Shown here piece by piece: positions 1,377-16,391 of a stretch of DNA of 23,201 bases. The stretch is taken from the NCBI GenBank assembly GCA_016209155.1, contig JACQWU010000122.1, positions 1-23,201 on the forward strand, written 5' to 3'. Numbering within the stretch: position 1 is the first letter of the stretch; each line of letters begins with the position of its first letter. Source of the stretch: Candidatus Desantisiibacteriota bacterium. GTDB taxonomy: Bacteria; JACRDZ01. The position numbers were made by a program, and so were the translations under genes. The notes beneath the pieces are model-generated. The model made no database searches. It saw only the letters and a program-made list of their open reading frames with translations, and had not been told where the DNA came from.

Positions 1377-2306
1377 TTAATTACATAAAATTTTATATCT
1401 CCCAAATCCACTCGTAGTATTTTGTCCAACTCCGATTATTTCTCCTAATTTTAAATAAGGATAAAATGAATTTAAATCACCGGATAATTTAATTGTTCCA
1501 GATTGCCCGCCAATTTTCATGGATATATTCTGTCTTGAGGAAAACCTATTAAAATCTTTCCATTTTGTATCAGATTCTGTTTTGATAGATTTTGCATTTT
1601 CAATAAGAACATGTTTTTCATTTTCAATTTTCTCTTTATCAAAATCTTTACCATTGCAATAAAGATTATTTAAATTAATAATTCTTTTTATTAAAAGCTT
1701 AAATAAAGTTTCAAATGAAATTTGATTATAACATAACCCCTTTTGTTCATCTTTTAGTTTTAACGGTGTGATTAATTTAATTAATAATTCTTCATTAAAA
1801 TGTTCATACCCAGTGAGTAAATCAATAAATTTTTTTGGAGGTTCAGCTTGTATTTCTTTTATTCTAAACCTTCCTCTATATTTCCCAATCCCAATTTTCC
1901 CGGCTTCTTCAATAACTTTCACAAATTTTTCATAATGCTCAATTGCTTCACCAATTAAAATAATTTCAACGGAAAATTCTTCTTTATGGGAATATGCTAC
2001 CTTTGAGTCAAGCAGAGGTGAAATTACATAAGGATGAGGCTTATCTATTTCAAAATAAGCGAAATAAAAACAATTTAATTTTTTATCACAAGAGGAGCAT
2101 TCAGTTTGTTCCCACCTATAAAAACATGCTTTATTCCGGAAAACTTCACCAAACGCCCCTCTCCACATATCACCTTTTTTTTCATCCGCGCCAAGTATGA
2201 TTTTGTCTTGAGGTGTAAGGATAAATTTCAAGTTTAGCATATTGAATTCGGATAAGGATTTATCAATAATGGAAGTATCAAATAATATTTTCATTTCTTT
2301 TTCCAT
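1377..2306 (-). CDS. cas6: Cas6-family CRISPR RNA-processing endoribonuclease
   Basis: Cas6 cuts CRISPR precursor RNA within repeats to give mature crRNA; here it would supply the type III-D complex encoded to the right. The family is recognised by WRGAFGEVFR (about residues 48-57), followed by a cysteine set Cys61, Cys70, Cys73 and Cys79 (CSSCDKKLNC), and by the C-terminal RAMP glycine-rich block LKLGEIIGVG plus SGFGRY (about 286-304). This is the layout of the Cas6 C-terminal (PF10040-like) group. Residues 1-22 (MEKEMKILFDTS...) do not look like Cas6 but like the start of a PIN toxin; the same codons occur in the truncated cassette at 3129-3357. A natural Cas6 start would be Met23 (MLNLKF, base 2240), although no clear ribosome site precedes it. 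The true start is therefore open. Confidence 0.85.
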   Translation of the reverse strand: MEKEMKILFDTSIIDKSLSEFNMLNLKFILTPQDKIILGADEKKGDMWRGAFGEVFRNKACFYRWEQTECSSCDKKLNCFYFAYFEIDKPHPYVISPLLDSKVAYSHKEEFSVEIILIGEAIEHYEKFVKVIEEAGKIGIGKYRGRFRIKEIQAEPPKKFIDLLTGYEHFNEELLIKLITPLKLKDEQKGLCYNQISFETLFKLLIKRIINLNNLYCNGKDFDKEKIENEKHVLIENAKSIKTESDTKWKDFNRFSSRQNISMKIGGQSGTIKLSGDLNSFYPYLKLGEIIGVGQNTTSGFGRYKILCN

Positions 2307-2495
2307 GATATAACTTTTTTAAATCGTTCATTCTGATTTTTTTTACAATTGTAGTTATATCTCCTGTTATTTCACCCGAATATATTACAATACCTTCTTT
2401 TTTTGAAAGAGAGATTGTTTCACGAGTTGGCTTTAATATAATTTTATTGTTAATTTTTTTTATTTTCAATAGTTCTCCTGATTTTAACCCAAATA
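2268..2495. repeat. Direct repeat copy B: antitoxin-like gene plus PIN-toxin start
   Basis: About 228 bp that recurs at 3129-3357 in the same orientation with only scattered differences, including 8 versus 9 T in one homopolymer. It contains an antitoxin-like gene and the first ~12 codons of a downstream toxin-like reading frame. Homology stops abruptly on both sides (after GATACTTCC-TTA on the toxin side, read on the minus strand). In this copy the toxin start runs in frame into cas6. Confidence 0.85.
2278..2469 (-). CDS. VapB/AbrB-like antitoxin, orphan (copy B)
   Basis: A 63-residue protein that I read as an antitoxin-like polypeptide: a short beta-rich start (KKINNKIILKP), then SLSKKEGIVIYSGEITGD and a helical tail, the general shape of small AbrB-type VapB proteins. 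The call rests mainly on context. It precedes, and overlaps by 29 bp, a frame beginning MKILFDTS, which is the classic first strand of a PIN toxin. That toxin is not present; the frame continues as Cas6. The start is a TTG preceded by AGGAG five bases away, and copy A conserves both. I cannot prove it is expressed, and a different small DNA-binding role is possible. Confidence 0.5.
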   Translation of the reverse strand: MKIKKINNKIILKPTRETISLSKKEGIVIYSGEITGDITTIVKKIRMNDLKKLYHGKRNENII

Positions 2496-2504
2496 TGCAT
2501 TATA

Positions 2505-2732
2505 TTATGTTGTTTTAATAGAAAAACATTTTTTAGGATAGTCAATTGTAAGGATAAAGTTACTTAAGAAGCTTTTAACACCAAGTAATGGTATTTTTAA
2601 ATTTGGCATAAAGTCAATTAACACATTATCTATTTTAAATTCCGGCAATTGTATGCACATTGTATGAGGATTTTTTATGATAACAGGTAGCCAAGCTCTA
2701 TTATTTTTTAAGGCTAAATTTAATATTTCCAT
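2505..2732 (-). pseudogene. Retropepsin-like aspartyl protease with internal deletion
   Basis: The 75-residue frame joins an N-terminal piece (NRAWLPVIIKNP) to a C-terminal piece (LPEFKIDNVLIDF, then LGVKSFLSNFILTIDY) of the small retropepsin-like proteins commonly encoded next to DUF5678-type genes. Such proteins are usually about 120-140 residues and carry a catalytic Asp-Thr/Ser-Gly-Ala motif between these pieces. Here that whole segment is absent, at about residue 24, without breaking the frame. The product should therefore have no protease activity. It starts at an ATG overlapping the stop of the upstream gene by one base (TAATG), so translation is coupled. Family assignment is from pattern recall. 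Confidence 0.6.
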
Positions 2733-2923
2733 TAATATATTTGCACCATATTTTTTGGAGGTATATATATTACGACAGGGTCAGCATAACCCTTTTTTAT
2801 GGCATTATCATATGTTTCTAAAATTGTATTTCCTGAAGTTACAATGGTCTCATCATCGAAATCTTTTAAAGCAATATATTTCCCGGAATATTCTTCTGTA
2901 TCTTTTCCAAAAATTTGTGTCAT
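2732..2923 (-). CDS. DUF5678-like small protein
   Basis: A 63-residue protein with the pattern EEYSGKYIALKDFDDETIVTSG followed by a helix (DNAIKKGYADPVVIYIPP). This matches small DUF5678-type proteins of unknown biochemical function. These are typically followed by a retropepsin-like aspartyl protease gene, exactly as here, although the partner is deleted internally. The ATG start is preceded by AAAGGGAG about 11 bases upstream. No function beyond the pairing can be inferred. Confidence 0.65.
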   Translation of the reverse strand: MTQIFGKDTEEYSGKYIALKDFDDETIVTSGNTILETYDNAIKKGYADPVVIYIPPKNMVQIY

Positions 2924-2997
2924 AATAGCTACATCTCCCTTTTATAATATTATATATTTTATAATACCATACTTTTTATTAAAACTCTATTTTTAGC

Positions 2998-3040
2998 TTA
3001 CATTTACTGCTGGATTAGTATCAATTAAAATATTATGTAA
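2998..3040 (-). pseudogene. Remnant of a PIN toxin N-terminus
   Basis: On the minus strand this short stretch reads NILIDTNPAVNVS and then a stop. The first seven residues equal the start of the PIN toxin at 3571-4035 (NILIDTNA), and the nucleotides match closely over about 25 bases (compare 3015-3036 with 4005-4031). Nothing else of a PIN domain follows and there is no start codon at the right place. It is best read as debris of a vapC gene. Confidence 0.5.
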
Positions 3041-3128
3041 GAAATGTTATTTAACGTAGGAATTATATTACCCATACAACTCTTCCCTTCTTTAAGGTAA
3101 AATAATTTGCATTTTATCTTCTATATGT

Positions 3129-3357
3129 AACGGAAGTATCAAATAAAATTTTCATTTCTTTTTCCATGATATAGCTTTTTTAAATCGTTCATTTCGATTT
3201 TTTTTTACAATTGTAGTTATATCTCCTGTTATTTCACCCGAATATACTACGATACCTTCTTTTTTTGAAAGAGAGATTGTTTCACGAATTGGCTTTAATA
3301 TAACTTTATTGTTAAATTTTTTTATTTCCAATAGTTCTCCTGATTTCAAACCAAATA
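3129..3357. repeat. Direct repeat copy A: antitoxin-like gene plus truncated PIN-toxin start
   Basis: The second copy of the cassette at 2268-2495, in the same orientation. In this copy the toxin-like frame reads MEKEMKILFDTSVTYRR and stops, so the toxin is truncated after about 12 native codons at almost the same nucleotide where copy B joins cas6. The flanks of the two copies are unrelated. Confidence 0.85.
3152..3331 (-). CDS. VapB/AbrB-like antitoxin, orphan (copy A)
   Basis: Near-duplicate of the protein at 2278-2469 over its first ~45 residues (ILKP.RETISLSKKEGIV, then YSGEITGDITTIVKK). An extra T in a T-run shifts the frame near the end, so its last residues (NRNERFKKAISWKKK) differ from copy B. 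The TTG at 3331 has AGGAG five bases upstream as in copy B; the frame is open to another TTG at 3349, but that site has no ribosome-binding sequence. The cognate toxin is reduced to a dozen codons. It may be a decaying gene or a free antitoxin able to neutralise related toxins nearby. Confidence 0.45.
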   Translation of the reverse strand: MEIKKFNNKVILKPIRETISLSKKEGIVVYSGEITGDITTIVKKNRNERFKKAISWKKK

Positions 3358-3489
3358 GGTGTTAAGTTAAAAATAATGAATTACTACAATTAACCAATAA
3401 AAACAACTGTAAACTGTAATAAGCCCTTGCTATATAAGTATTTTTTAGATGTTAATTTCACAAAAGCCTTGTAAATCAAGGTGATTTAG

Positions 3490-3570: not shown

Positions 3571-4035
3571 TTATATTCTAAAAATAAGTTTGCAGCTATC
3601 TACCGAATAAATTCTTTTGATTTTTGAGATTTCATCAAAATCTGTATCAAAAGAAATAATATATTTTAATTTGTCATGAATCATATATTGTAATAAAAAA
3701 CAGTCATTGTAATTCAGCATTCCGCTATATTCAGTTAACATTTCCAGAATATCATTATGAAATTCTTTTATTCTTTCACTTATCCATTCAATGTCTTCTG
3801 CTTTATAATCCATTTTTATTTTGGAAATTAATTCCGGAAATTCTTTCTCTTTTCCTTTACTTTCAAATCTTTTAGATAAAACGTTTAATGCTTCATTTAA
3901 AACTATATCTGTAATTATTATATTTATTTTATGCTCTGATAATGTTTTTAAAATATCGTCTCTTATTTTATTCCATTTATCTTGTTTATCTAATATTGAG
4001 ATAAATGCATTAGTATCAATTAAGATATTACTCAT
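3571..4035 (-). CDS. PIN-domain ribonuclease toxin (VapC-like)
   Basis: A 154-residue PIN-domain protein with first-strand Asp7 (NILIDTNAF), Glu48 in the DIVLNEALNVL helix, Asp111 in NYNDCFLLQYM, and an acidic C-terminal cluster at Asp130, Asp132 and Asp134 (SFDTDFDEI). This gives the four-acid active site of VapC-type RNases. It overlaps the upstream antitoxin gene by 8 bp. It is somewhat longer than the VapC at 455-883 and belongs to a different subfamily. Next to the tRNA fragment, it fits an accessory-island boundary. It appears complete. Confidence 0.88.
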   Translation of the reverse strand: MSNILIDTNAFISILDKQDKWNKIRDDILKTLSEHKINIIITDIVLNEALNVLSKRFESKGKEKEFPELISKIKMDYKAEDIEWISERIKEFHNDILEMLTEYSGMLNYNDCFLLQYMIHDKLKYIISFDTDFDEISKIKRIYSVDSCKLIFRI

Positions 4036-4377: not shown

Positions 4378-4686
4378 TTAATCAATCAAATCTCCCGGTT
4401 TATATTTTGTTCCATGAGATAATGCAATTACATATTTATTAAGTTTAGGATCAAAAACTCCAATAGCTTCAAAAAGATGGGCTACAGCATGAGCAATAAC
4501 AATCGCAACCGGCAATGATGCCGGTCCATTGATCTTCAAAATCTGACCACCTTTAAGAATATTATTCTCAATCATACTATCAAGGATTTTACCAGCATCA
4601 CGAACAATTTGGTCGTTTTGCGCCGGTTCTCCGAAACCAATTCTCAATAAATTATTATCCTCTAAAGATATTTTATATGAAATCAT
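4378..4686 (-). CDS. csx3: Csx3 (Crn3) cyclic tetra-adenylate ring nuclease
   Basis: Csx3 is a type III CRISPR accessory protein shown in other organisms to degrade cyclic tetra-adenylate (cA4), switching off the antiviral signal made by Cas10. This 102-residue protein has the full family pattern: ISYKISLEDN, RIGFGEPAQND, KINGPASLPVAIVIAHAVAHL, then GVFDPKLNKYVIALSHG and a final PGDLID. His66, His70, Asp79 and His91 are candidate functional residues by position. The start at 4686 (MISYK) follows GGATGGAG; the frame could extend to a GTG at 4710, but that would sit upstream of the ribosome site. It is the last gene of the CRISPR operon and looks intact, unlike its upstream partner. Confidence 0.9.
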   Translation of the reverse strand: MISYKISLEDNNLLRIGFGEPAQNDQIVRDAGKILDSMIENNILKGGQILKINGPASLPVAIVIAHAVAHLFEAIGVFDPKLNKYVIALSHGTKYKPGDLID

Positions 4687-4718
4687 TTCTCCATCCTTTC
4701 CGGAATTCACTATTTCTA

Positions 4719-5270
4719 TTAAATTTCTGCAAGTCTTTTTATAGTTGGCCGATCATAAACTTTTTCACCTCTTTCAAGATGATGTACTGATCCGCGATAT
4801 ATCCCGTCTTTATCAAGTTCAGGAACTATATCTTTTACTCCGTTTTAATCACTATATATCTCTGCAATAATCCGAAGATTAACTTTTCTACAAAATTCCT
4901 GCTATTCCGGTAAATGATTTAAATCACCTATCAATAATATTGCATGAGTAGCAGAAGCGCAAATAACTTCGTTGTCCTCAGATGTCCTACCACCTATATC
5001 AATTAAGGTCAAAGGAAGCTGACAATTTTTCACTGAATCGGCTACTCTTTGGATAAATTCCGGTGTAAATTTTGATTTATAAGCTGCTTTACATTCTGCC
5101 GCAAGTTCAGGATTTGCATTCATAGTCTCCTGAAACCATGCCCCTTCTCCATCAGGACAGGCAGTAATCACATAAGGATAAGGCTCATTCTGAATTCCGA
5201 TTGCCTTCTTAAGCCCTTCACGCAAACATGATTTACCTGACCTCGGAGGGCCACAAAAGACGAGTTTCAA
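4719..5270 (-). pseudogene. P-loop/AAA-type ATPase partner of Csx3, broken by two stop codons
   Basis: The family accompanies Csx3, either as a neighbour or fused to it; its own reaction is not established to my knowledge. A Walker A motif GPPRSGKS lies at residues 7-14, followed by PYPYVITACPDGEGAWFQE and LTLIDIGGR. The frame ends at a TAG (4902-4904) after GDLNHLPE, but the same frame continues with recognisable family sequence: QEFCRKVNLRIIAEIYSD, then a TAA, then DIVPELDKDGIYRGSVHHLE, RGEKVYDRPTIKRLAEI and a final stop. The first stop sits where a Trp (TGG to TAG) and the second where a Tyr is expected, so both look like point nonsense mutations. The start is TTG with GGAG nine bases upstream. 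A truncated 122-residue P-loop protein may still be made. Confidence 0.85.
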
Positions 5271-5436
5271 CAGAAAATCTCCGTAATACCTAAAAATAAC
5301 AAATGATAATTCACCTTCTACATGTAGTGGTGGGTTACCATCCCTCTTTCATTTTTTTAATTCCATACCCATTTGTTTCGGCTTGTTGGCAAGGGAAAAA
5401 CCATATAAATACAGTTCAAATAAGTAGCTAATAAAA

Positions 5437-7170
5437 TTATTTTAATGGATAAAATGGAGAACTCTTCTCATTATTAATAAATTTGTTATACTCTTTTTCC
5501 CACCAATATCTTAGCTTAATTTTATAAGTATTATATAAATATTTTTCAACCTCTTTATATTCGTCAGAAACTTCTTTTTCTATTAATTTTTTCCTTGATT
5601 CATTAAGATATACGTCTGCAATCCCTTCTTCATTATTCGGATATAGGACTATATCAAATTCTAATGAATCTTTAGGATGATAAATTAATACTTCTTTAAC
5701 ACATTGATGTTTAATATAATGATCCTTATGTGAAAACCTCATGCTTGCTATATCAATAAATTCAGCAGCAGTAAGCCAGACTGTTGCAAGTGTTTTTTCA
5801 ATGTCGCTGCCATTTTTTAATTTTTCAAGACATATTTTTTTGAAATTTATATATTCTTTTTTTAATTTAATATTCCCATTATCATTTTCAATATAAATGC
5901 AACCTTTTTTTAGTTCGTCGTTTCCTTCATGTGCAAGTATGCAACAATGTTTATAAGCTTCAAAAGCATCTTTTGCTTTATTCTTTAAAATTTCATAATC
6001 TTTATCAATAAGATTACACGCAATGGTAATTTCATTTTTTTTACCCGCTCTTCCAACCTGATTATCACATCCGTCAATAATTCTCATAAAAGCAACAATT
6101 TTCATAATATCAATATCTATAAATTTTTCTTTTTTATCTTCTAATTTAAGTTCTCTTTCATTTGATAAATATTTAACACCTTTTTCATTATCATCTTTAT
6201 CAAAAGGCATACGTCTTCTATGATTAAGACATACTTCCAAAATAGCCTCGGACAAATTCAAATTAAATTTTTTAATTTCTATCCAGCCAAGATCATCTGC
6301 CATTTTATCATTATTAAGCCTTTGCACTGACAAAAAATGATGAAAGTCTCTTATCTCATTAGGGAAAAGAGGGATTTCTTCATTTTTTATTTTTATAAAA
6401 TTTAAACTATGACCGCAGTCGTGAAGTAAAATCCCGGCAATTAAACAAAATCTTTCGTTTATATTAAAAAATTTTTTATCTTTATCAAAAGTGAAAAATT
6501 GCTCTGCAAATTTAAGAAGGTTATGATGATGCCGTCTTGCATGTTCCACCATTTCAGGGATTTTATCCCCTGTCCATATATGAACTCCTGCTTTAGTAAT
6601 CATACCTTCTAACTTCTCTCTATAGTAACTAAGATTATCTTTAGGTGTATCCTTTAAAAGTATATTTATTATCTCTTTTGAATAAACCTCCAAACGTGCG
6701 TCTTTAGACTCTGATTCATATTTATCTTGAAGTTGTTTACCAAGTGTGTCAAGGTGTCCATTCTTTATAAGATTTTCTATTTCTGGAGCAAGATTTTTTT
6801 TGAAATCTTCTTCTCCTTTGTCAATCATTTTTAAACGTACAACATTTTTTTCCCATTTATGATAATCAACACCTATTGGGTATTTCGGTATTTCAATAAT
6901 TTCCAACGAACTTTCATACAAATAACATATAGTAACTTTTTCAGGATATAGCATACCTTGCAAGGTTGCATATGGAACGACACCTTTATAACCTCCGGTA
7001 ATGTTTAGATATATTCTGTATGAATCATCATTTTTGTATTTATTAATAATACTATTTATTTTTGTAAATAACTCAGTGATCCCTTTATTTTTAAACTCTT
7101 CACCATCATATGCATTTATTCCATCAATGGGAGTAATTTTCTTTTTGTTTATTTCTTGATTTTTTTTCTT
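5437..7170 (-). pseudogene. CARF-HD effector: second CARF half plus HD domain (out of frame with its N-terminus)
   Basis: This frame opens just after a TAG at 7171-7173 and holds the second half of a CARF domain (NITGGYKGVVPYATLQGMLY, the cyclic-oligoadenylate-binding signature; then YLYESSLEIIEIPKYPI) followed by a large HD domain. Counting from the TTG codon at 6963, HD residues are HARRHHH at 141-147, His181-Asp182 in LLHDCGHS, His208-His209, His248 in CLNHRRR, and Asp297/Asp300 in RIIDGCD. CARF-HD proteins are known type III ancillary effectors, with the HD domain acting as nuclease or phosphohydrolase. The TTG at 6963 lies inside the CARF domain and is not a credible start. Without the first half, which is encoded in another frame at 7124-7501, CARF cannot fold normally. 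The HD part could be active only if restarted internally or after frameshifting. Confidence 0.8.
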
Positions 7171-7501
7171 CTATTCTTTTAAAAAGATAACTAATTTCCT
7201 GCGGAAGTCGATCTTGAGGAGTATTAACTGTTTGTTTGTTTTTTCTGAGATTTATTTCATAAATAGGATCAATGCTTTTATTAAAGTCGGTTAAAAAGCT
7301 GCATACTTCTGATTTCAAATCATTCTCTGATAGAGAATTTGATTTAATATTATTTCGTATTTCTCCAGACTTACTATTTAAATTTTTTATTGAACGTTGC
7401 TCCCCTTTATCATTACCCGGTTTCCTGCTTTCTGTCTCACCTCCATTTGTTAATAAAGATATTCCAACTGTAAGTATATGAACTATTTTTTTTTCATCCA
7501 T
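7124..7501 (-). pseudogene. CARF-HD effector: N-terminal CARF fragment, ends in a frameshift
   Basis: The 125-residue frame begins with the first strand of a CARF domain (HILTVGISLLTN) and reaches LPQEISYLFKRIEEKK, a usual CARF helix. It then passes an eight-A run (7160-7167 on the complement) and ends with unrelated residues RNKQKENYSH. The next expected CARF strand, a D.V.L..SDT..G segment of about 20-30 residues, is found in neither frame. The downstream half continues one frame over. A small deletion of 3n+2 bases explains both the gap and the shift. The start ATG overlaps the end of the upstream RAMP gene by 8 bp, so this was the next gene of the operon. A Ser/Asn/Lys-rich stretch (about 23-70) is unusual for CARF. 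Confidence 0.75.
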
Positions 7502-9674
7502 TCTGTGTCTCTTTTTTTTCTATTTCTTCGAGAGTTTTCAATGTGTCTTCTTCGTGATTGTTTTTTCTTTTTTCTCTTTCTCTCATGAAATATCCATACC
7601 CCTTATCAGCAGTATCATCTGGAGAATAATACTGAATCGGAATATCCAACAAAGGATTTTTTTTAACCAGGTTAATTTGTAATACTCTTAACAAGTCTTT
7701 AATATTTGTACTATTGGAAGTATCTGCTAAAAATTCTTTAACATATCCTGAAAGTTTCTTGTCTTTTATTACTTCTTTATCAATATGTTCAAGATCGACA
7801 TTTTCATCGTCTAACTTTTGAAACCAATTTTTTTCAGGATTTTCAACTAAGACTTTGTCAATATTAAATCTTACACTTCCCATTCCAATCCCTTTGCCCA
7901 TACCGAGTTTATGTGCATGCTTTTCAGAAGACTCTACTGGATTTTCTGAAAGCGTCAAACACCAGAGAAGCATTCCTAATTCATAAGTATCCAGAGATTC
8001 AAATTCGATTGCACCTTTAAATTTAGTTTTTTTAAAAAGGACTTTACATGTTGAATTAAATTTTGTATGAGGAAATATTTCTACATCATTACCGTTTTTA
8101 TCCTTAATTATATTTTTTCCAGCATCGTCAGAAAGTTTTTCAGATATAAGACTTAAATACGCTTCCCAATTTACAGGAGTAGGATCGGGATGATGTAAAT
8201 AAAATTTTCTTCCTCTTATTACACCTGGAGTATTTGACCATGGAGTATCAATATTTTGAGTGTAATATGCAGCTCCAGCAGTCCCATTTTTTGCTTTAAG
8301 ATAGAACGGATAATATTGGGGTTTAGGACTTGCCAATATTTTTAGAGGTATCGATTTTATATCCATATCTTCAATAACTTTATTCGCTGTACATGCAACC
8401 TTAAACCTTACTCTACCTGAGATTCCTTGTTTATTATTTTCATCCTTTTCAGGTGTCCAACCAAAAAGTCTGGATGCAGAGCATAAATGTTTTTCATCCA
8501 ATTTTGAGTTAATTATCTGCTTTGGTAGTATTTCCTTAAGACTGGCATTTTCAGCACTTTTAAACATGGAAACTGGACCAAATTCCAATATTGATTTATC
8601 ATCTATTGATTCACCATCTTTTTTTTCATAATATACAACTTGCCCATTTTCAAGTTGGCCATAAATATCAATATAATCTTTAGTTGAAACACTATATGCG
8701 TTAGATTCATCTTCTCCATAAGTTACAAAGGTATATAATTCGCTCTTTTTTATATCGCTTTCTCTTACTTTTTTATCTTCATAAAATTTTTGGAGAAAAA
8801 ATTTTCCTTCAACAAAATCATTAGATATACCTGTCCATATTTTACCATTATGAGTAATTTCAATCACTCTTTTATGTCCATAATTTAGTTTAGGGAAATT
8901 ACAATATTTAAAATTAACTTTATCCGCTGTAAAATTTCTTCCAACATTAAACGATTCACAATTAAAAACCTCATCATCCCATGGGCAATAAAATTTTTCT
9001 CCATTTTCAATAACAATTTGTCTTTTATGTTTATTTCTTAGTTCAAATCTACCTTCGTCCTCTTTTATATTTATTGGAAGAGCTATCGCTGTAAATTCTT
9101 GTCCTCCTAATTTAAAACTCATGACCACTTTTCTACCTGTGTGTATTTTCCATAATTTCACTTCTATGGGTTTATTTCTATATTCGTTAATCTTATCTTC
9201 ATCTACTAAATTAATAGAAGATAAATTTTTCAGTGATTTGATTGCTTCTTTTAAAGCTCCAAGCGGAAGTTTGGCAACCTTACATGGAACTATTTTATTA
9301 TCTCTGTATATACCTATTAAATTTCTAAATTCATCTTTTTTTCTAAATGAAAATTTTTTTTCTATTCTATCCAGCACTCCAAACGTGCTATTTGTGGCAG
9401 CTTCAACTACACTGCGAACCATCCCTTTGATCGAGGTTGGAGGGATACATAAATGTTCATTTATATTAAAAAAATCCATCGCTTTATGTTCACCATCTTC
9501 AACTTTATATATTGTCGTTCCTTCAGGATCAGGAATAAAAAGAGGACTTAAATTTTCCAGAGTATATTCTATTCTACCTGTTAGCCCATCATAATAATGG
9601 AGCGGCTTAAATTTTTCTCTTTTTTTACTATCACCAATAGAAACAAAATTATATGGGTATATAAATTGAGACAT
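7494..9674 (-). CDS. TIGR03986-family RAMP protein (Cas7-like) of the type III-D complex
   Basis: A 726-residue RAMP-superfamily protein, among the longest of the operon. Near the N-terminus it has GRIEYTLENLSPLFIPD and then CIPPTSIKGMVRSVVEAATN, the Cas7-type entry pattern (I-P-x-S-S/T-I-K-G). Near the C-terminus it has LGMGKGIGMGSVRF, the glycine-rich loop seen in RAMPs and in the TIGR03986 group. Between them lie long, less familiar insertions. It probably forms part of the crRNA-binding backbone or a cap. The start at 9674 (MSQFIY) is preferred because AGGAG lies six bases upstream; an ATG two codons earlier abuts the ribosome site. It follows the toxin gene at 9698 by 23 bp. Confidence 0.8.
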   Translation of the reverse strand: MSQFIYPYNFVSIGDSKKREKFKPLHYYDGLTGRIEYTLENLSPLFIPDPEGTTIYKVEDGEHKAMDFFNINEHLCIPPTSIKGMVRSVVEAATNSTFGVLDRIEKKFSFRKKDEFRNLIGIYRDNKIVPCKVAKLPLGALKEAIKSLKNLSSINLVDEDKINEYRNKPIEVKLWKIHTGRKVVMSFKLGGQEFTAIALPINIKEDEGRFELRNKHKRQIVIENGEKFYCPWDDEVFNCESFNVGRNFTADKVNFKYCNFPKLNYGHKRVIEITHNGKIWTGISNDFVEGKFFLQKFYEDKKVRESDIKKSELYTFVTYGEDESNAYSVSTKDYIDIYGQLENGQVVYYEKKDGESIDDKSILEFGPVSMFKSAENASLKEILPKQIINSKLDEKHLCSASRLFGWTPEKDENNKQGISGRVRFKVACTANKVIEDMDIKSIPLKILASPKPQYYPFYLKAKNGTAGAAYYTQNIDTPWSNTPGVIRGRKFYLHHPDPTPVNWEAYLSLISEKLSDDAGKNIIKDKNGNDVEIFPHTKFNSTCKVLFKKTKFKGAIEFESLDTYELGMLLWCLTLSENPVESSEKHAHKLGMGKGIGMGSVRFNIDKVLVENPEKNWFQKLDDENVDLEHIDKEVIKDKKLSGYVKEFLADTSNSTNIKDLLRVLQINLVKKNPLLDIPIQYYSPDDTADKGYGYFMREREKRKNNHEEDTLKTLEEIEKKETQNG

Positions 9675-9697
9675 TTCCATCTCCTATAATAATAGTA

Positions 9698-10009
9698 TTA
9701 ATGTTTTGGCAAACTTTCTAACCTGTTTATCCAATAATTTGGACGGCGTTTCTGATGCATTACAGCAAGAATTAATAAGATGTCATTATCTATAAAATAG
9801 AGCAGATTATAAGGAAATCTCTGTAAAGATTTTTTTCTAATACGCCTACCAATAGGTGTAAAAGCTTGAGGATTGATTAATATTACAGCAACTGCTTTTC
9901 TAATTTCATTGATAAATGTAATCCCAAGACCCGGTGCTTCGCTTTCATAATATCTGGCAGCTTCAATAAATTCTATTTCTGCTTCCGGATGAAATGATTC
10001 TTTTATCAT
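9698..10009 (-). CDS. ParE/RelE-family toxin
   Basis: A 103-residue RelE/ParE-superfamily toxin: FHPEAEIEFIEAARYYE at the start, then GLGITFINEIRKAVAVI, RRIRKKSLQRFPYNLLYFID and a closing MHQKRRPNYWINRL. The basic KRRPNYW ending and the RFPYNLLYFID strand are typical. ParE-like members poison DNA gyrase and RelE-like members cut mRNA; this sequence resembles the ParE side, but the target is not proven. Its ATG overlaps the antitoxin stop (ATGA). It sits in the middle of the CRISPR operon, between csx19 and the large RAMP gene, in the same direction. Confidence 0.88.
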   Translation of the reverse strand: MIKESFHPEAEIEFIEAARYYESEAPGLGITFINEIRKAVAVILINPQAFTPIGRRIRKKSLQRFPYNLLYFIDNDILLILAVMHQKRRPNYWINRLESLPKH

Positions 10010-10236
10010 GAAATTTCACCTATTGCTCGTCGATATACTTCATCTGCTGGTATTGCAGATACTTTCTTTTCCTGAAATTCCTTAAGCCGACGCTCTGCTT
10101 CACAGACCCAGAGGTGCTCAATCTCAGAGTCTGATGGTGTATCCAGACTTAGAATCAATTTTTCTGCAAGTTCTGCACGAGATTTTATCTCAAGTTTCAT
10201 TGCTTCAACAGTTATTTCTTCAAGTTTCATCGACAT
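10006..10236 (-). CDS. Addiction-module antitoxin (TIGR02574-like)
   Basis: A 76-residue antitoxin of the putative addiction-module component type: helical AMKLEIKSRAELAEKLILSL, then an acidic, Trp-containing EIEHLWVCEAERRLKEF and a tail with IPADEVYRRA. This is the customary partner of ParE-like toxins. The ATG is preceded by AAGGAGG with good spacing. It starts 54 bp after csx19, so the module could be transcribed with the CRISPR operon; the spacer is A+T-rich and could hold its own promoter, but I do not see a convincing one. Confidence 0.88.
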   Translation of the reverse strand: MSMKLEEITVEAMKLEIKSRAELAEKLILSLDTPSDSEIEHLWVCEAERRLKEFQEKKVSAIPADEVYRRAIGEIS

Positions 10237-10290
10237 AATTCAACCTCCTTCAAATCAAATTTATTATATACTATATTTTATGTCTTTTTT

Positions 10291-10851
10291 TTATCTTTTT
10301 CCCATCGGACTTACAAATCTCCATAATATAGGTTCATCCTGATCATTTAAATATTCTTTTATTTTAAGTTTAGGATATCTCTTACCTGAATTTTTAATAA
10401 TTGCAGGATAATCAATTGCAATTGAACCTGAAACCCTTTGTTCAAAATAAGCTTTTTCCTCTTTTCCATTTTTTTTGTATGATCCCCATAGTATTAGAGT
10501 CCTGATTTTTTCTTTTACTTCAATTTCTGATGAAGTTATTTTATCCGGTAAATTTGAAATTTCTCCATCCTCGATTAAAATTAAAATTGAAAATTTATCA
10601 TAATCAACCCTTCTCCATTCAATTTGACCTTTATCCCAGAATATTCTTCCTTTTAGTCCATATTCTTCAATTTCATTTCTATTTAAATCAGCAATCATTC
10701 CGCCTATATCAGAAAAATTAAATCTATGAACATATTCAATCAGAGCATATGTATCTTTATATTGTTTTATCCATTCTAAAAAAACTTCTTCATTAATCCA
10801 TGTTTGCAAAGAATTCTTATCAATTTTTCCTGTTTTAACTTTTAAATTCAT
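10291..10851 (-). CDS. csx19: Csx19, type III-D CRISPR-associated protein
   Basis: A 186-residue protein matching the Csx19 (TIGR03984) pattern: GLKGRIFWDKGQIEWRRVD in the first half, IRTLILWGSYKK in the middle, and KLKIKEYLNDQDEPILWRFV at the end. Csx19 is a signature of subtype III-D. Structural work on III-D complexes places it as an accessory subunit, but its own activity is not well defined. Its ATG overlaps the stop of the upstream double-RAMP gene (ATGA), so it belongs to the same translational unit. The match is by motif order rather than by alignment. Confidence 0.8.
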   Translation of the reverse strand: MNLKVKTGKIDKNSLQTWINEEVFLEWIKQYKDTYALIEYVHRFNFSDIGGMIADLNRNEIEEYGLKGRIFWDKGQIEWRRVDYDKFSILILIEDGEISNLPDKITSSEIEVKEKIRTLILWGSYKKNGKEEKAYFEQRVSGSIAIDYPAIIKNSGKRYPKLKIKEYLNDQDEPILWRFVSPMGKR

Positions 10852-12527
10852 GTTTTATTTTTTCCTATATATGCCTGCAATTCTTTTTTAAAAGCTCTTA
10901 TCGCTTTTTCTATTATAATGAATAACCTATCATCTTTATTAACCCAGAAGTTTTCCCCTGATTTTATTGGAGTTTCAGGAATATGTATAAATTCACCAAT
11001 ATCCCCACCCGTTTTATCAGTGAAATCAGCAAAAATACCTTTGTTATCTTTATTAAAATTATATGTAAGTCCTTCTATTGTAATGTTTCCTTTTAGCAAT
11101 TTGACTCTGCCGAATCCTTTATTTTTCCCGTAACCTATTAAAATTTGTCCGTTATAAAGATCTTTTAGAAGTAATGCAACAAGCCCCAGGTGCCATTCTT
11201 CAAAATCTTCAAGTCTGATTAAAAATTTCATATCACCCGAACTATCCTGTTCCGGGTAATTCGGGAAAAATGGTCTTGAATTGAACTTTTTCTTTTGCGC
11301 AGCTCCACCTGTAAATCTATCTATTGCTACATGATCTATTAATTTAAGATGTCCCTTAAATTTTTCTTTATTTTCAGGTTCCGCATCACTAAAGCTTATT
11401 CTACCACCCATAGCACCAAAACCGAATAATTTACTGATAATACATGCTTCATCGTAAATTTCATTATAATCTTTATCTTTTAATTCTTTCGCTTTTATTC
11501 CTAAAGTTTTAACATCCCATACAGAATTTTTTGCATTCTGGTCGTTCTTGTTAATATTGTATATCAATGTTCTGATTATTTTTTCAGCATGAGATCTAAA
11601 ACATCCTCTTATAGAACTGCCAGGGATATATGGAATATTATCAGGATAACAACAAAATGCCGAATCAACACTGACAGGTTTATCATCAATAGGAAGATCT
11701 TTTAGCTCATTAATTGTGATGGTATTTTTACGATTTACTATATCTGTTGGAAAGCCTGTTTTAACAAGTATTGGGTCAAGAGGTCTTATTATCCCCTTTA
11801 TTTTTATAACTTCAGGAGTAAATTTTATTTTTGAAATATTTTTATTTAAAGAAATATTATGTTTTTTTAACGATGTTATTTTTTCAACTCTGGGCAAAGC
11901 ATTGGTTTTTTCCAGAGCAAAGTTTAATATGTCATCAGGATTTGTTCTCTCAAAATAAAAACATTCTAAAATCGTGAGTTTGAAATTGCCGTGTCCTGTC
12001 CCAGTTTTGCCTCCAATTGATGCTAATCCGCTTCCCATAATTTCAAGAACATCAATTAGAAGATTTAAATTTTCAAATTCTACTTTTTCTCTAAATTCAC
12101 ACGAAAATTCGAAACAAGCATTTGAAGAAACCACCTCATCGTGAAATAAATATTTTTCCAGAGACGATCCTCTTTCTCTATCTATCGAATTTCTATCTTG
12201 AATAAATATTTTTACATTTTTATCAGGAACAAGTATTGCATCAAGAACAATAAGACGGGATTCTTCCCCTTCACCTTTCTTGCCTGCGGAACCAAAAAGT
12301 GATCTAAAAATAGGATTAAATTCTGCTTTTTCAAAAGCAATATCATCAAGCATTAATCTTTTTTTCGCAATGATAGCCATTATTCCACATATCGATGTTC
12401 CGGGAATATACGGATTATCATTACTATCCCGCATTATTAAATTATCTATAAAATCCCCTGATTCCCCTGACCCAATATGCAATGGACTTTGAATTTGAAT
12501 ATTTCCCTTAAAATAATAGTTTCTCAT
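10848..12527 (-). CDS. Double-RAMP (Cas7-Cas7) backbone subunit
   Basis: A 559-residue fusion of two Csm3/Cas7-like RAMP domains. Domain 1 (about 1-200) has HIGSGE, Asp28, PYIPGTSICG (39-48) and the glycine loop GGKTGTGHGNF (172-182). Domain 2 (about 240-485) has Asp288, PYIPGSSIRG (299-308), DHVAIDRFTGGAA (398-410) and GYGKNKGFGRVKL (465-477). Asp28 and Asp288 each lie about 12 residues before the PYIPG motif, where Csm3 carries its target-RNA-cutting aspartate, so both domains may cut target RNA. Covalently joined Cas7 units are known in III-D and, more extremely, III-E complexes. It overlaps both neighbours by ATGA. Confidence 0.85.
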   Translation of the reverse strand: MRNYYFKGNIQIQSPLHIGSGESGDFIDNLIMRDSNDNPYIPGTSICGIMAIIAKKRLMLDDIAFEKAEFNPIFRSLFGSAGKKGEGEESRLIVLDAILVPDKNVKIFIQDRNSIDRERGSSLEKYLFHDEVVSSNACFEFSCEFREKVEFENLNLLIDVLEIMGSGLASIGGKTGTGHGNFKLTILECFYFERTNPDDILNFALEKTNALPRVEKITSLKKHNISLNKNISKIKFTPEVIKIKGIIRPLDPILVKTGFPTDIVNRKNTITINELKDLPIDDKPVSVDSAFCCYPDNIPYIPGSSIRGCFRSHAEKIIRTLIYNINKNDQNAKNSVWDVKTLGIKAKELKDKDYNEIYDEACIISKLFGFGAMGGRISFSDAEPENKEKFKGHLKLIDHVAIDRFTGGAAQKKKFNSRPFFPNYPEQDSSGDMKFLIRLEDFEEWHLGLVALLLKDLYNGQILIGYGKNKGFGRVKLLKGNITIEGLTYNFNKDNKGIFADFTDKTGGDIGEFIHIPETPIKSGENFWVNKDDRLFIIIEKAIRAFKKELQAYIGKNKT

Positions 12528-13003
12528 TTTTTTGAAGACCTTCCCATCAGTTCTTTAATAATTTTCCGTAAAACTTTTATTCTCCAAATTTTATATTCAT
12601 CTATGGTCACTTCAAATTTAATCATACTTGTTCCCCAGCTTTTTACTAACTCATATAATACATTATCTGTTCTGGTTGTTTTTTTCTTATACCAGTCAGG
12701 AATCTTTTCTGCAAAAATTTTGACTATCTCATATTCCCATTCACTTTCTTTTTTTAATTGTTCATGTTTCAAAAAATCAGCCCATTTTTCAACGTCATCG
12801 GATCTGCTAATAAGCTCAAAAAAATGTTCTTTTTGTGTTTTATTTGAAAAATTACAAAAAAAATCAATAAGTTCTTCACTGCTATTTTTATCATCAAATA
12901 TATCTTTAAATATTAAAATAGGTTTAATTTCATTTTTTAAACATTCTTTTATAGCTTGTTTAACAATCCTTACTCTAATTTTTTCTTTTTCATTCATATA
13001 CAT
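12524..13003 (-). CDS. Small helical protein, candidate Cas11 (Csm2-like) subunit
   Basis: A 159-residue, strongly charged, apparently all-helical protein with no motif I recognise. It sits between Csx10 and the double-RAMP gene and overlaps both (10 bp and ATGA), so it is a co-translated member of the operon. Type III complexes need a small helical Cas11 subunit and no other gene here fits, which is the main reason for the call. Tryptophans at KWADFL, PDWYKKK and KSWGTSM and the KEEH/KHEQ helices are not diagnostic. The first ATG (13003) and a second at 12997 are both close to an AGGA; the second has the better spacing. Confidence 0.55.
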   Translation of the reverse strand: MYMNEKEKIRVRIVKQAIKECLKNEIKPILIFKDIFDDKNSSEELIDFFCNFSNKTQKEHFFELISRSDDVEKWADFLKHEQLKKESEWEYEIVKIFAEKIPDWYKKKTTRTDNVLYELVKSWGTSMIKFEVTIDEYKIWRIKVLRKIIKELMGRSSKK

Positions 13004-14115
13004 TTATCCTGTAAATGGAATGGATCATTAATTTTAATTTCACCAAATCCTTGAGAACGTAAAAGGCCAATTCCTTTATTTTGTAGATCAGTAAGTCGGT
13101 ATGAAATACTTTGATGGTCATCTTTTGCTTCGAAAGTATAGCAAAAGGTGCTTCCTATCGAAATAGCTATTTGTTCTTCCTGAGGCCTTCGATAAGCTCC
13201 ATTCCATCCTTGAATTACTTTTATTGAAGAGAAATAATAATCCATTAGTGAACATGTATTTAAAATATCATTCAATTTTTCCTGTATTAATTCTCCTGGA
13301 ATATATGGCAAATATCTGTGATAGGCATCCATAATTATAGTATCTGAGTAACATGTTATTATAAATTTATTATTTTTTAGTAATATATCATCTTTAATAT
13401 CATCTTTAGCAATATATCGAGTTTCATTATCAAGTTTTAATTTAATACGACCTGGTGCTCTTCCTATAGGAATTTCTATTTCTTTTTCTACAAAAAAATT
13501 TATATTATCAGTTAGTTTTTTTTCAATATTTATATCTAATGAATCATCTATACTAATATAACCGGCAAAAAATGATTTTCGAGGAATTGTTATTCTTGAA
13601 AAAAGCATTCCTTCTTTCGTAGTACCACTATTCACATCACGCTCATGCTGTATTTGCTGATTAAACGGTTGCAAAACTGTTTCACAGGTTGGCGGATTAC
13701 CGTAATAAAAATTTTCATACTTTATATCATCTCCTATTTCATCCGGCATTGGTTTTAAAAGATAATCCCATATACCCGCTCCTATGCCATCTTCCGCATA
13801 ATCAACTTTATCACTCTTAAATCCCGGACAAATTTTTTTTGTTCTTGCCGATAAAGGCACTGGTTTTACTCTATAATTATTTTTGATAGGATAAAGATTT
13901 GAAAAAACAACATTTCCAGAATAAAAAATATCCATAAACCATTTAGAAGGAGGAGTTAATGTCCCGGGTTTTATTCCTGTCATTGATGCAATAGCGCCCC
14001 ATACAATACGGCCGGGAATATAGTTCAAACTTTGATATATATTTTTCATATCCTGCCTTGATGAAAGACAAATATCCTCAGTTACTTCTGCAAGAAGTCT
14101 TCTGTATATTTTCAT
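12994..14115 (-). CDS. csx10: Csx10, Cas5-like RAMP protein of subtype III-D
   Basis: A 373-residue RAMP protein with the Csx10 (TIGR02674) layout: NYIPGRIVWGAIAS near the N-terminus, a middle KEGMLFSRITIPRKSFFAGYI, later YLPYIPGELIQEKLN, QGWNGAYRRPQEEQIAISIGS, and a glycine-rich end LLRSQGFGEIKI. Csx10 takes the Cas5 role, binding the 5' tag of the crRNA next to Cas10, and is the hallmark of III-D. Its start lies inside the end of the upstream Cas7 gene (38-bp overlap) and is preceded by AAAGGA. The gene is complete. Confidence 0.85.
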   Translation of the reverse strand: MKIYRRLLAEVTEDICLSSRQDMKNIYQSLNYIPGRIVWGAIASMTGIKPGTLTPPSKWFMDIFYSGNVVFSNLYPIKNNYRVKPVPLSARTKKICPGFKSDKVDYAEDGIGAGIWDYLLKPMPDEIGDDIKYENFYYGNPPTCETVLQPFNQQIQHERDVNSGTTKEGMLFSRITIPRKSFFAGYISIDDSLDINIEKKLTDNINFFVEKEIEIPIGRAPGRIKLKLDNETRYIAKDDIKDDILLKNNKFIITCYSDTIIMDAYHRYLPYIPGELIQEKLNDILNTCSLMDYYFSSIKVIQGWNGAYRRPQEEQIAISIGSTFCYTFEAKDDHQSISYRLTDLQNKGIGLLRSQGFGEIKINDPFHLQDKCI

Positions 14116-14851
14116 TTATAATATTCCTTTTACTTTTCCATATTTCAATATGTGTGTTAATATCTACTTCCCAATCTTTATCCAGAGGATTAAATCTGCA
14201 TTGCCCTGAACCACGATTTCTATTTCCACCTATATTTGTGACTAATCTCATTGCAAGTAAAATTAATACTCTATCAATTTTTTTTATTTTATCATCAACA
14301 TTTTTATTGTAAGACGCTATTTCAATTATATTCCCTTCGAAGGGCAATGGGAGATCAACCATACCAGCAGTAAATAATGCATCTTCTTCAGATCTTTTAA
14401 GAAGCGGATTAATTTTATTTCTGGTACGTTTTTGATAAATTGCTTCAGGGCTGTTTTTATTTATTTTTTCAAATAATTCTTCATTTGTCTCATTGATATA
14501 TGCTCCGGAAAAATCATATCCTCTGGTAATTTCACTACCCGGGATACCGAATATTCTGCATAACGGACATGATTTTTTTATATTTTCACAAAATTTCCCC
14601 TTCCCTGTTTTCTGAGCATCACATATATGATTATATTCATCAAATGAGACTTTATAAGTTTTATCATTTTCAACGCAATGCTGTCTTATTGCAGCTTTTA
14701 TCCTACCCCTTATACTCGATCCCGGAATATATGGAACTCCATTTGAAAGCACTGATACCATATCATAATTCCCTGAATCTATTACTGATGAAGCTATAAT
14801 AAAAGGTGAATTAAAAAGCAACTCATATTTGATATCTTTACATTCATTCAT
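14078..14851 (-). CDS. Csm3-like Cas7 RAMP with zinc-binding cysteines
   Basis: A 257-residue single-domain Cas7 subunit. It shows PYIPGSSIRGRIKAAIR (40-56) with Asp30 11 residues before it, at the place of the Csm3 RNA-cutting aspartate. A four-cysteine set (Cys77, Cys88, Cys95, Cys98; the last pair in CPLCRIFG) likely binds zinc, and the C-terminal glycine loop is NIGGNRNRGSGQCRF. It probably coats the crRNA together with the double-RAMP protein. The ATG overlaps the cas10 stop by 8 bp and is preceded by GGAG with seven-base spacing. Confidence 0.85.
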   Translation of the reverse strand: MNECKDIKYELLFNSPFIIASSVIDSGNYDMVSVLSNGVPYIPGSSIRGRIKAAIRQHCVENDKTYKVSFDEYNHICDAQKTGKGKFCENIKKSCPLCRIFGIPGSEITRGYDFSGAYINETNEELFEKINKNSPEAIYQKRTRNKINPLLKRSEEDALFTAGMVDLPLPFEGNIIEIASYNKNVDDKIKKIDRVLILLAMRLVTNIGGNRNRGSGQCRFNPLDKDWEVDINTHIEIWKSKRNIINENIQKTSCRSN

Positions 14852-16391
14852 TATTTTCTCCGACTTTTATCAGCCCTATCATTTCTATTGCATCTATTAG
14901 AAGTGTTGAATCATAATTCATGTGGTCTTTTTTTATTAAAGGTAATTTATCACTGTCAGGCAATTTTAAAAGATTTAATACTTCTTTAAAATTTTTTTCT
15001 TGTTCATCTGTTAAATGTTTTTTCCATATTTCATAATCGACTTCTGCTTTAAATTTTTTTTGATAAAAAATGTTTTGAAGCTCTTTCAATTTACTATTTA
15101 GAAAATTTTTTCCCAATAGTATTGCAGCTTTATTTAGGTTATCAATATCTTCTGGTAAATATGGCCCGCCATAAAGTAAAAAATCTATATTGTTGTTATC
15201 ATCTCGAATTATTTTTGATTTTCTTATTTCCTGAAGCTTTCCTATTGCATTATTTTTAATAATACAAAAATCTATATAACCGCTGTTTTTATTATTACGA
15301 CTATGTATCTTTGCTCTTTGCTCTAATTCATGACCTAATTGATTGAAAGCAAGAATTGGATATTTATATGAAGCAATAACTACTCCTGCTGACATGGTAA
15401 GATTTTGAACTTTTTTTATTCCTAATTCTGTCATTAATTCTTCAGATTCAACTTTAATACGATGCAATAATTCTTTTGCAACATCGAGAGCTAATGCCCC
15501 TTGAACTGCTATAGCAAGATCATCCCCGCCAATATATAAAATTCTTATTGGAAGAGCTTCTCTCTTTTTTTTTATTGCATTTTTTATTACATTTTTCAGG
15601 GAATCTCGAACAACTGTATTTATACGCTCTTTTAAAAAAAAGCAAAAATCAGCATAATTAATTTCTGTATCAGCTATATCTTTAGTTTTAGTGCCAAGTC
15701 CGTTAATATCGGCATAAATAATTCCGAGTAACATTGATTCAGAAGTGCCACAGTCTTTTTGAATATTATCTCCTGTTGTTGTCCAATTAACAATACCCCC
15801 GAAATCTCGTGGGATTTTATAATCCTTATGCGTTTCTATTAACTCTTTTTCAATTTCCGTATATTCCTTTTTAAGCTTTTTAAAAAAATCATTCTTCCCT
15901 TTTTCCGTAAGATTACATCTTCTATATTTTTTATCTGGTAATTTAATTATACCTTCTGATGATCCTATACCGGATTCTTCGCATGGAACTGCAAGGATGC
16001 TTGAGATAGAAAGCATTGGACTTTTTAGTTGTGTCTTTTTTTTATTTAATTTTTTAATTGAGGGATGAATGACCTCATCAAAAAAATTGACAGGTTCGTT
16101 TTTAGTAGTATGTTTTATTATCGTTACTTCTATTCCGTATTCCCTAAAAATCTTTTCAGATTCAATTAAAAACTTTTGAGCATTATTTTTATTATTTCCT
16201 TCAAATTTAGCTATTGTCAACCCACCGCCTGAACGTATTATTTCTACATTATTTTTCTCTGCAATTTTAGGAATAATATTTTCTTCAATATCTGCAAGTA
16301 ACATGGAAGCATTACATATTTGTTTTAATCGATTTGATGCAAAGACATAAGCTTGTATGCGGTTACAATCTATCAACACATATTCAGGCAT
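14844..16391 (-). CDS. cas10: Cas10, cyclic-oligoadenylate synthase subunit lacking the HD domain
   Basis: Large subunit of the type III effector complex, 515 residues, which is short for Cas10. It begins directly with the first palm-like domain (VLIDCNRIQAYVFASNRL; then SGGGLTIAKFEG about 54-65). The second palm has LLGIIYADINGLG (Asp228) and the catalytic YIGGDDLAIAV with GGDD at 288-291, so target-activated synthesis of cyclic oligoadenylate from ATP looks possible. A helical C-terminal domain follows. No N-terminal HD nuclease domain exists, so this Cas10 should not cut DNA. It is the first gene of the operon; AAAGG precedes the ATG, and the start matches the conserved first strand. Confidence 0.93.
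   Translation of the reverse strand: MPEYVLIDCNRIQAYVFASNRLKQICNASMLLADIEENIIPKIAEKNNVEIIRSGGGLTIAKFEGNNKNNAQKFLIESEKIFREYGIEVTIIKHTTKNEPVNFFDEVIHPSIKKLNKKKTQLKSPMLSISSILAVPCEESGIGSSEGIIKLPDKKYRRCNLTEKGKNDFFKKLKKEYTEIEKELIETHKDYKIPRDFGGIVNWTTTGDNIQKDCGTSESMLLGIIYADINGLGTKTKDIADTEINYADFCFFLKERINTVVRDSLKNVIKNAIKKKREALPIRILYIGGDDLAIAVQGALALDVAKELLHRIKVESEELMTELGIKKVQNLTMSAGVVIASYKYPILAFNQLGHELEQRAKIHSRNNKNSGYIDFCIIKNNAIGKLQEIRKSKIIRDDNNNIDFLLYGGPYLPEDIDNLNKAAILLGKNFLNSKLKELQNIFYQKKFKAEVDYEIWKKHLTDEQEKNFKEVLNLLKLPDSDKLPLIKKDHMNYDSTLLIDAIEMIGLIKVGENNE

Follow-up and report, generated by a model that had tools for sequence, protein, structure and literature searches.

A type III-D CRISPR operon with an interrupted CARF-HD effector and an interrupted Csx3-associated ATPase

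The stretch of DNA analyzed here (the window) is the whole contig C203 (JACQWU010000122.1; 23,201 bp) of a metagenome-assembled genome (MAG) from a Candidatus Desantisiibacteriota bacterium. The MAG consists of 352 contigs (3.08 Mb) and is estimated to be 78.8% complete and 2.3% contaminated, so that about 21% of the genome is absent from it. The minus strand of the contig carries a full type III-D CRISPR operon, which is followed by genes for a CARF-HD protein, an ATPase and Csx3. The CARF-HD and ATPase genes, both belonging to the cyclic oligoadenylate (cOA) branch, are interrupted, the first by a frameshift and the second by two stop codons, while 9.3 kb of backbone genes plus cas6 are free of lesions. 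Genes were called with profiles from Pfam, NCBIfam and PADLOC; Cas10, Cas7-2x and Cas7-insertion were also compared with the III-Dv structure 8s9t.

All genes of the operon, its accessory genes and cas6 lie on the minus strand. The gene cas10 (14844-16391; PF22335, 48.8 bits; PADLOC Cas10, E = 5e-53) encodes the putative signal maker, a protein of 515 amino acids that begins straight at the palm region, has no HD domain and keeps IGGDD; the alignment contains both GGDD and the palm aspartate. It is followed by a Csm3-like cas7 of the backbone (14078-14851; PF03787; PADLOC Csm3/Cas7_IIId) and a Csx10-type cas5 (12994-14115; PADLOC Cas5_IIId, E = 1.4e-24), whose best NCBIfam match, TIGR02674 with 63 bits, is below the cut-off. 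An open reading frame of 159 codons (12524-13003) is a putative small subunit (cas11) by its position, which is that of a 128-codon frame in genome G089; a family search with this protein gave no match. The next genes are cas7-2x with two fused Cas7 domains (10848-12527; PF03787, 164 bits; 8s9t chain D, E = 1e-17), csx19 between the Cas7 genes (10291-10851; TIGR03984, 28.9 bits against a cut-off of 35; PADLOC Csx19, E = 3e-5) and cas7-insertion (7494-9680; TIGR03986, 277 bits against a cut-off of 161; 8s9t chain E, E = 9e-25). The Csx10-type Cas5, the TIGR03986 protein, csx19 and an HD-less Cas10 with a cyclase motif together mark the locus as type III-D. The initial annotation of this DNA had correctly read Cas10 as a GGDD protein without HD; the missing HD is no special feature, since only 3% of III-D Cas10 proteins have this domain (PMC11229360). 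An intact cas6 (1377-2306; PF10040, 54 bits; PADLOC Cas6, E = 6.5e-66) is present as well. Its protein has a short PIN-like N-terminal extension; these ca. 20 additional residues resemble the start of a PIN toxin gene (ILFDTSII) and match a duplicated segment at 3128-3205. A second, 5'-truncated copy of cas6 is cut by the contig end (1-339); it shares 82% amino acid identity with residues 105-216 of the intact Cas6 and 88% identity on the DNA level. The earlier gene list was right in what it contained, but it left out both cas6 copies and a ParE/antitoxin pair (9698-10236).

The CARF-HD gene is split, as had been proposed. An N-terminal fragment with the start of the CARF domain (7124-7501) contains the motif TVGISLL and gave a weak CARF7 match (E = 0.0017); the rest of CARF and the HD domain are encoded in another frame (5437-7123; PADLOC CARF7-CARF_HD, E = 1.3e-23; Pfam HD-CE, 40.8 bits). 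Hence the CARF7-type protein does not occur here as one uninterrupted chain. The frame change is confined to the interval between about 7168, the last stop in one frame, and the TGA at 7124 in the other, and this overlap includes a run of eight adenines. Downstream, the second frame has no further stop until its end at 5437, and the HD residues are all present past the break (HARRHHH, HDCGH, DFHH, NHRR, IDGCD). A second small indel is possible in the CARF N-terminus, which is too divergent from the G089 protein to be aligned. The latter (L041; 832 amino acids) is an intact CARF7-HD protein encoded likewise after cas7-insertion, and it is 28% identical to the remainder in the window over 407 aligned residues. 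The predicted structure of the C-terminal part had a predicted local distance difference test score (pLDDT) of 36 and was of no use. A search of the literature found no paper on type III ancillary nucleases with a frameshift.

The frame of the Csx3-associated ATPase (4722-5273; AAA part of PADLOC Csx3-AAA, E = 3.9e-55) contains a TAG at 4902-4904 and a TAA at 4845-4847, which bears out the earlier report of two nonsense mutations. Read across both stops, the protein is 57% identical to an intact homolog from a Kaiserbacteria genome and 50% identical to that of genome G097, whose III-D locus encodes ATPase and Csx3 by two intact, unfused genes arranged in the order seen here. The alignment with these relatives runs past both breaks, and the intact relatives have residues at the stop positions; the Walker A motif GPPRSGKS is intact. 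The frame has only two stops in 184 codons, as compared with 9 to 22 in the other frames, and about 5% of single substitutions create a stop. The small number of stops, together with the alignment beyond the breaks, suggests that the loss is recent. Recoding of TAG or TAA was rejected, because intact genes in the window end in all three stop codons (TAA 10, TGA 9, TAG 1). The GC content of the ATPase gene is 38% compared with about 30%, and that of its third codon positions is 0.24 compared with 0.14-0.20; because the latter is only slightly raised, we do not claim a horizontal arrival. A search of viral contigs for relatives of the ATPase found none.

The csx3 gene (4378-4710, or 4378-4686) is open, as are all backbone genes, in agreement with the initial annotation. 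It encodes a standalone Csx3 of the GPASLPVA subfamily and is the candidate signal eraser (PF09620, 26.4 bits against a cut-off of 21; Csx3 part of PADLOC Csx3-AAA, E = 1.8e-21). With the NCBIfam equivalog model TIGR02579 it scored 20 bits against a cut-off of 55.4; it was therefore filed as a divergent Csx3 and not as a Crn3 equivalog. An alignment with Crn3/Csx3 from Archaeoglobus fulgidus (AF_1864; PDB 3wzi, 6yud; PMC7371418) shows that the catalytic residues H60 and D69 as well as H80 are shared and that H57 is displaced by one position. The absolutely conserved R71 of Crn3 is replaced by K and R46 by P; S44 and I49 are replaced by N and L. The first two replacements also occur in G097, cyanobacteria and Kaiserbacteria and thus represent a trait of the subfamily rather than decay in this genome. 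A two-sequence model of Csx3 reached a pLDDT of 73; its best fold matches were to an RNase E domain, with anti-sigma-antagonist (STAS) proteins lower and no Csx3 among the matches listed. A sequence search of the PDB gave only chance matches.

The rest of the MAG was examined for other responders to cOA and for CRISPR arrays. The search for CARF7-HD, CARF4-PDDEXK, CARF1-HEPN, Cas02710 and SAVED gave no other match in the available part of the genome; positive controls detected CARF4-PDDEXK in G097 and CARF1-HEPN in G016, and the controls for Cas02710 and SAVED were silent. The alternative raised at the outset, a different cOA responder outside the window, gained no support from this search, but another type III locus, on contig C291 (L015, 2551-9707), has two CorA-like effector genes in tandem. 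Its Cas10 has AGDE, a variant of the motif that is seen in effector-bearing loci (PMC11229360); for III-D CorA no activator is known (PMC12669027). The same locus includes a 634-amino-acid protein that resembles a fused Cas7-Cas5. The window itself contains no cas1, cas2 or array, as had been stated. Arrays, sought beside cas1 and with one repeat, were found on two contigs. One is part of a I-C locus on C132 (L038, 7422-10415); this locus has two cas4-like genes, one of which, judging by its sequence, appears to be fused to a four-helix-bundle-like tail. The other is on C224, where it belongs to a probable adaptation module (L039, 1659-3890) with cas1 and two cas2 genes and runs off the contig; its 35-nt repeat is GTTTCAGTTGCCTATTATCTTACCGGCTCTAATAC, of which the MAG contains no other copy. 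A I-D locus is found on C29. The reverse transcriptase on C224 is reduced to the first ca. 125 residues of a CRISPR reverse transcriptase fused to the start of a CopG-type antitoxin, and no YxDD motif was found on this contig. In G089 the corresponding reverse transcriptase is whole and is found alongside the III-D operon, cas6 and cas1; for this reason C224 may hold the adaptation genes of the III-D locus, albeit unproven.

Next we considered how the lesions are distributed. If three lesions were scattered randomly across operon and cas6 (12.2 kb), all of them would hit the two accessory genes (2.6 kb) in about 1% of cases; this figure, which is simple arithmetic from the coordinates, treats the lesions as independent and is overstated, because a broken gene is free to gather more. 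The two broken genes carry 3 lesions in 2.6 kb; the same density would put about 10 into the 9.3 kb of backbone and cas6, where none was seen. This absence suggests that the complex is still under selection. The open csx3 is weak evidence of selection, since at the lesion rate of the ATPase its 306 nt would stay clean with a probability of about 0.33.

Together, these results favor the view, to which we assign a probability of about 0.6, that this is a standard III-D operon in which the cOA output branch was recently lost in the sampled genome and the complex guided by CRISPR RNA (crRNA) was kept. The complex of Cas10, the Cas7 proteins, Cas5 and Csx19, supplied with crRNA by Cas6, would bind target RNA and, by analogy with III-Dv, cut it through the aspartates of its Cas7 domains. 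In III-Dv the aspartates in three Cas7 domains each cleave the target RNA independently (PMC11026444). The corresponding loop aspartates were read in FIDNLIM and SVDSAF of Cas7-2x and in NYDMVS of Cas7, so the catalytic-loop aspartate of the Cas7 domains appears to be kept; the pairwise alignment of Cas7-2x to D33 of III-Dv is one position off. Since III-D complexes cut target RNA in this way, the lack of a cOA effector need not make the operon useless. The initial annotation, which held that DNA defense must run through cOA, overlooked this direct cleavage (PMC11026444). Cas10 probably still synthesizes cOA, judging from its GGDD motif. The CARF-HD protein, the effector that would have answered this signal, is frameshifted, and the ATPase partner of Csx3 has two stops. 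Csx3 may still degrade the signal, with several of the residues that bind cyclic tetra-adenylate in characterized Crn3 replaced. This view is supported by the intact counterparts in G089 (III-D with the 832-amino-acid CARF-HD) and G097 (III-D with ATPase and Csx3). A comparison of the same locus in close relatives was attempted, and three genomes of the same phylum gave no Cas10 match.

Some observations weigh against this interpretation. The proposal that the branch decays effector-first agrees with the broken CARF-HD and ATPase genes and the open backbone, but genes other than the effector have decayed too, namely the reverse transcriptase on C224 and the second cas6. These remnants could equally mean that the entire III-D system is in early decay, in which case accessory and adaptation genes would have been hit first by chance and relaxed constraint and the backbone would be open only because the loss happened recently. 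The remnants of toxin-antitoxin and PIN genes at 2267-3369, which are degraded, fit such a course as well. The ca. 10 lesions that are missing from backbone and cas6 argue against it, and so does the unproven membership of C224 in the III-D locus; we therefore regard decay of the whole system as unlikely.

The three lesions may also stem from a mixture of strains or from errors of assembly, in which case the genes would be intact in most cells. The fragmented and incomplete MAG is consistent with such an artefact, as is the position of one lesion within a homopolymer-rich stretch. Two of the three lesions, however, are substitutions to stops, which are atypical of assembly errors, and other cas genes on C29, C132, C203 and C291 were seen without such interruption; an artefact is thus quite improbable. 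To our knowledge, interrupted accessory genes are not rare in MAGs. That CARF-HD is regulated and not broken, with slippage on the A8 run yielding some full-length protein in a phase-variable or low-level manner, is highly improbable: the run does lie in the sole possible frameshift interval and the remaining frame is free of further stops, but eight adenines are short for efficient slippage, the ATPase stops are not explained by it and no known relative has the same arrangement.

We also compared 37 Csx3 domains, including that of the window (4378-4710) and those of L084 (11291-12576), L086, L087, L091, L094, L110 and L014; the domains are related by descent, so that the following counts are not a significance test. 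All 19 standalone copies, the present one included, keep H57/H60/D69/K71/H80. In contrast, the copies fused or adjacent to an ATPase beside a standalone copy have lost H60 in 7 of 7 cases and keep D69 and K71. Fused copies without such a neighbor in the stretch that was read are divided (3 of 6 keep H60, 3 of 6 have lost it), and the remaining five domains come from double-domain proteins. On a tree of the domains about four changes are needed, at least two of them on well-supported branches. In Crn3 two dimers contribute to the active site, one with its D69 face and the other with its H60 face (PMC7371418); because of this architecture the ATPase-linked Csx3 copy may, as judged from these residues, be a half-site partner. 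We tentatively suggest, as a rather doubtful extension, that Csx3 of the GPASLPVA/DPK type and the ATPase could form a two-component eraser, a hetero-oligomeric ring nuclease, of which the ATPase half would have been lost here and the Csx3 with both faces left. In the papers that were searched, no statement of a half-site role for ATPase-linked Csx3 was found. Proteins that fuse Csx3 to the ATPase, with their C-terminal domain of unknown function, are already known, and deletion of the fused, His-less slr7080 is reported to have left plasmid defense unaffected (PMC9676260). The Csx3-linked ATPase so far has no known function, and the comparison suggests a role for it that can be tested directly. 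The Kaiserbacteria locus (L014, 9415-15158; MFMI01000005) encodes one Csx3 that looks intact, a second one without the His, and the same ATPase on a longer protein of 624 amino acids, for which there was no Pfam match; no Cas10 was detectable in this 0.7 Mb assembly of a bacterium of the candidate phyla radiation.

The window also contains genes of addiction modules. An antitoxin (10006-10236; PF09720, 53 bits) and a ParE-like toxin (9698-10009; PF05016, 34.6 bits) form a pair inside the CRISPR operon, in the same orientation (minus strand). In all, several toxin-antitoxin genes (PIN, ParE) and duplicated antitoxin and PIN starts are found within and next to the operon, at 455-1125, 2267-3369, 3571-4035 and 9698-10236.

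If the lesions are real, the locus catches a type III system partway through losing its components and shows their order, with the signal receiver and the partner of the eraser going before the signal maker and the RNA-cutting complex. Ring nucleases have already been recorded in 31 loci without a known effector (PMC12409355), and one simple way to arrive at this situation is for the effector to break. The locus is an ordinary multi-subunit type III-D operon and mainly an example of recent gene loss, not a new kind of system. With III-Dv of Synechocystis 6803 (PDB 8s9t; PMC11026444) it shares, by sequence, Cas10, Cas7-2x and Cas7-insertion (chains C, D and E) as well as csx19. In the window, however, each of Cas7, Cas5 and the putative Cas11 has a gene of its own, as in III-D1; the effectors of the Synechocystis system are Csx1 and Csm6, and its Csx3-AAA (Slr7080) is encoded beside a III-B locus. 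The III-D locus on plasmid pNsp_a of Nostoc sp. ATCC 53789 (NZ_CP046704) also has a short Cas10, Cas7 proteins, Cas5-type repeat-associated mysterious proteins, csx19, TIGR03986, a standalone Csx3 and an ATPase of the same family. It differs in that its ATPase is uninterrupted and carries its own fused Csx3 domain lacking the His face, and in that it has an intact CARF-PDDEXK effector (DUF1887) instead of CARF-HD.

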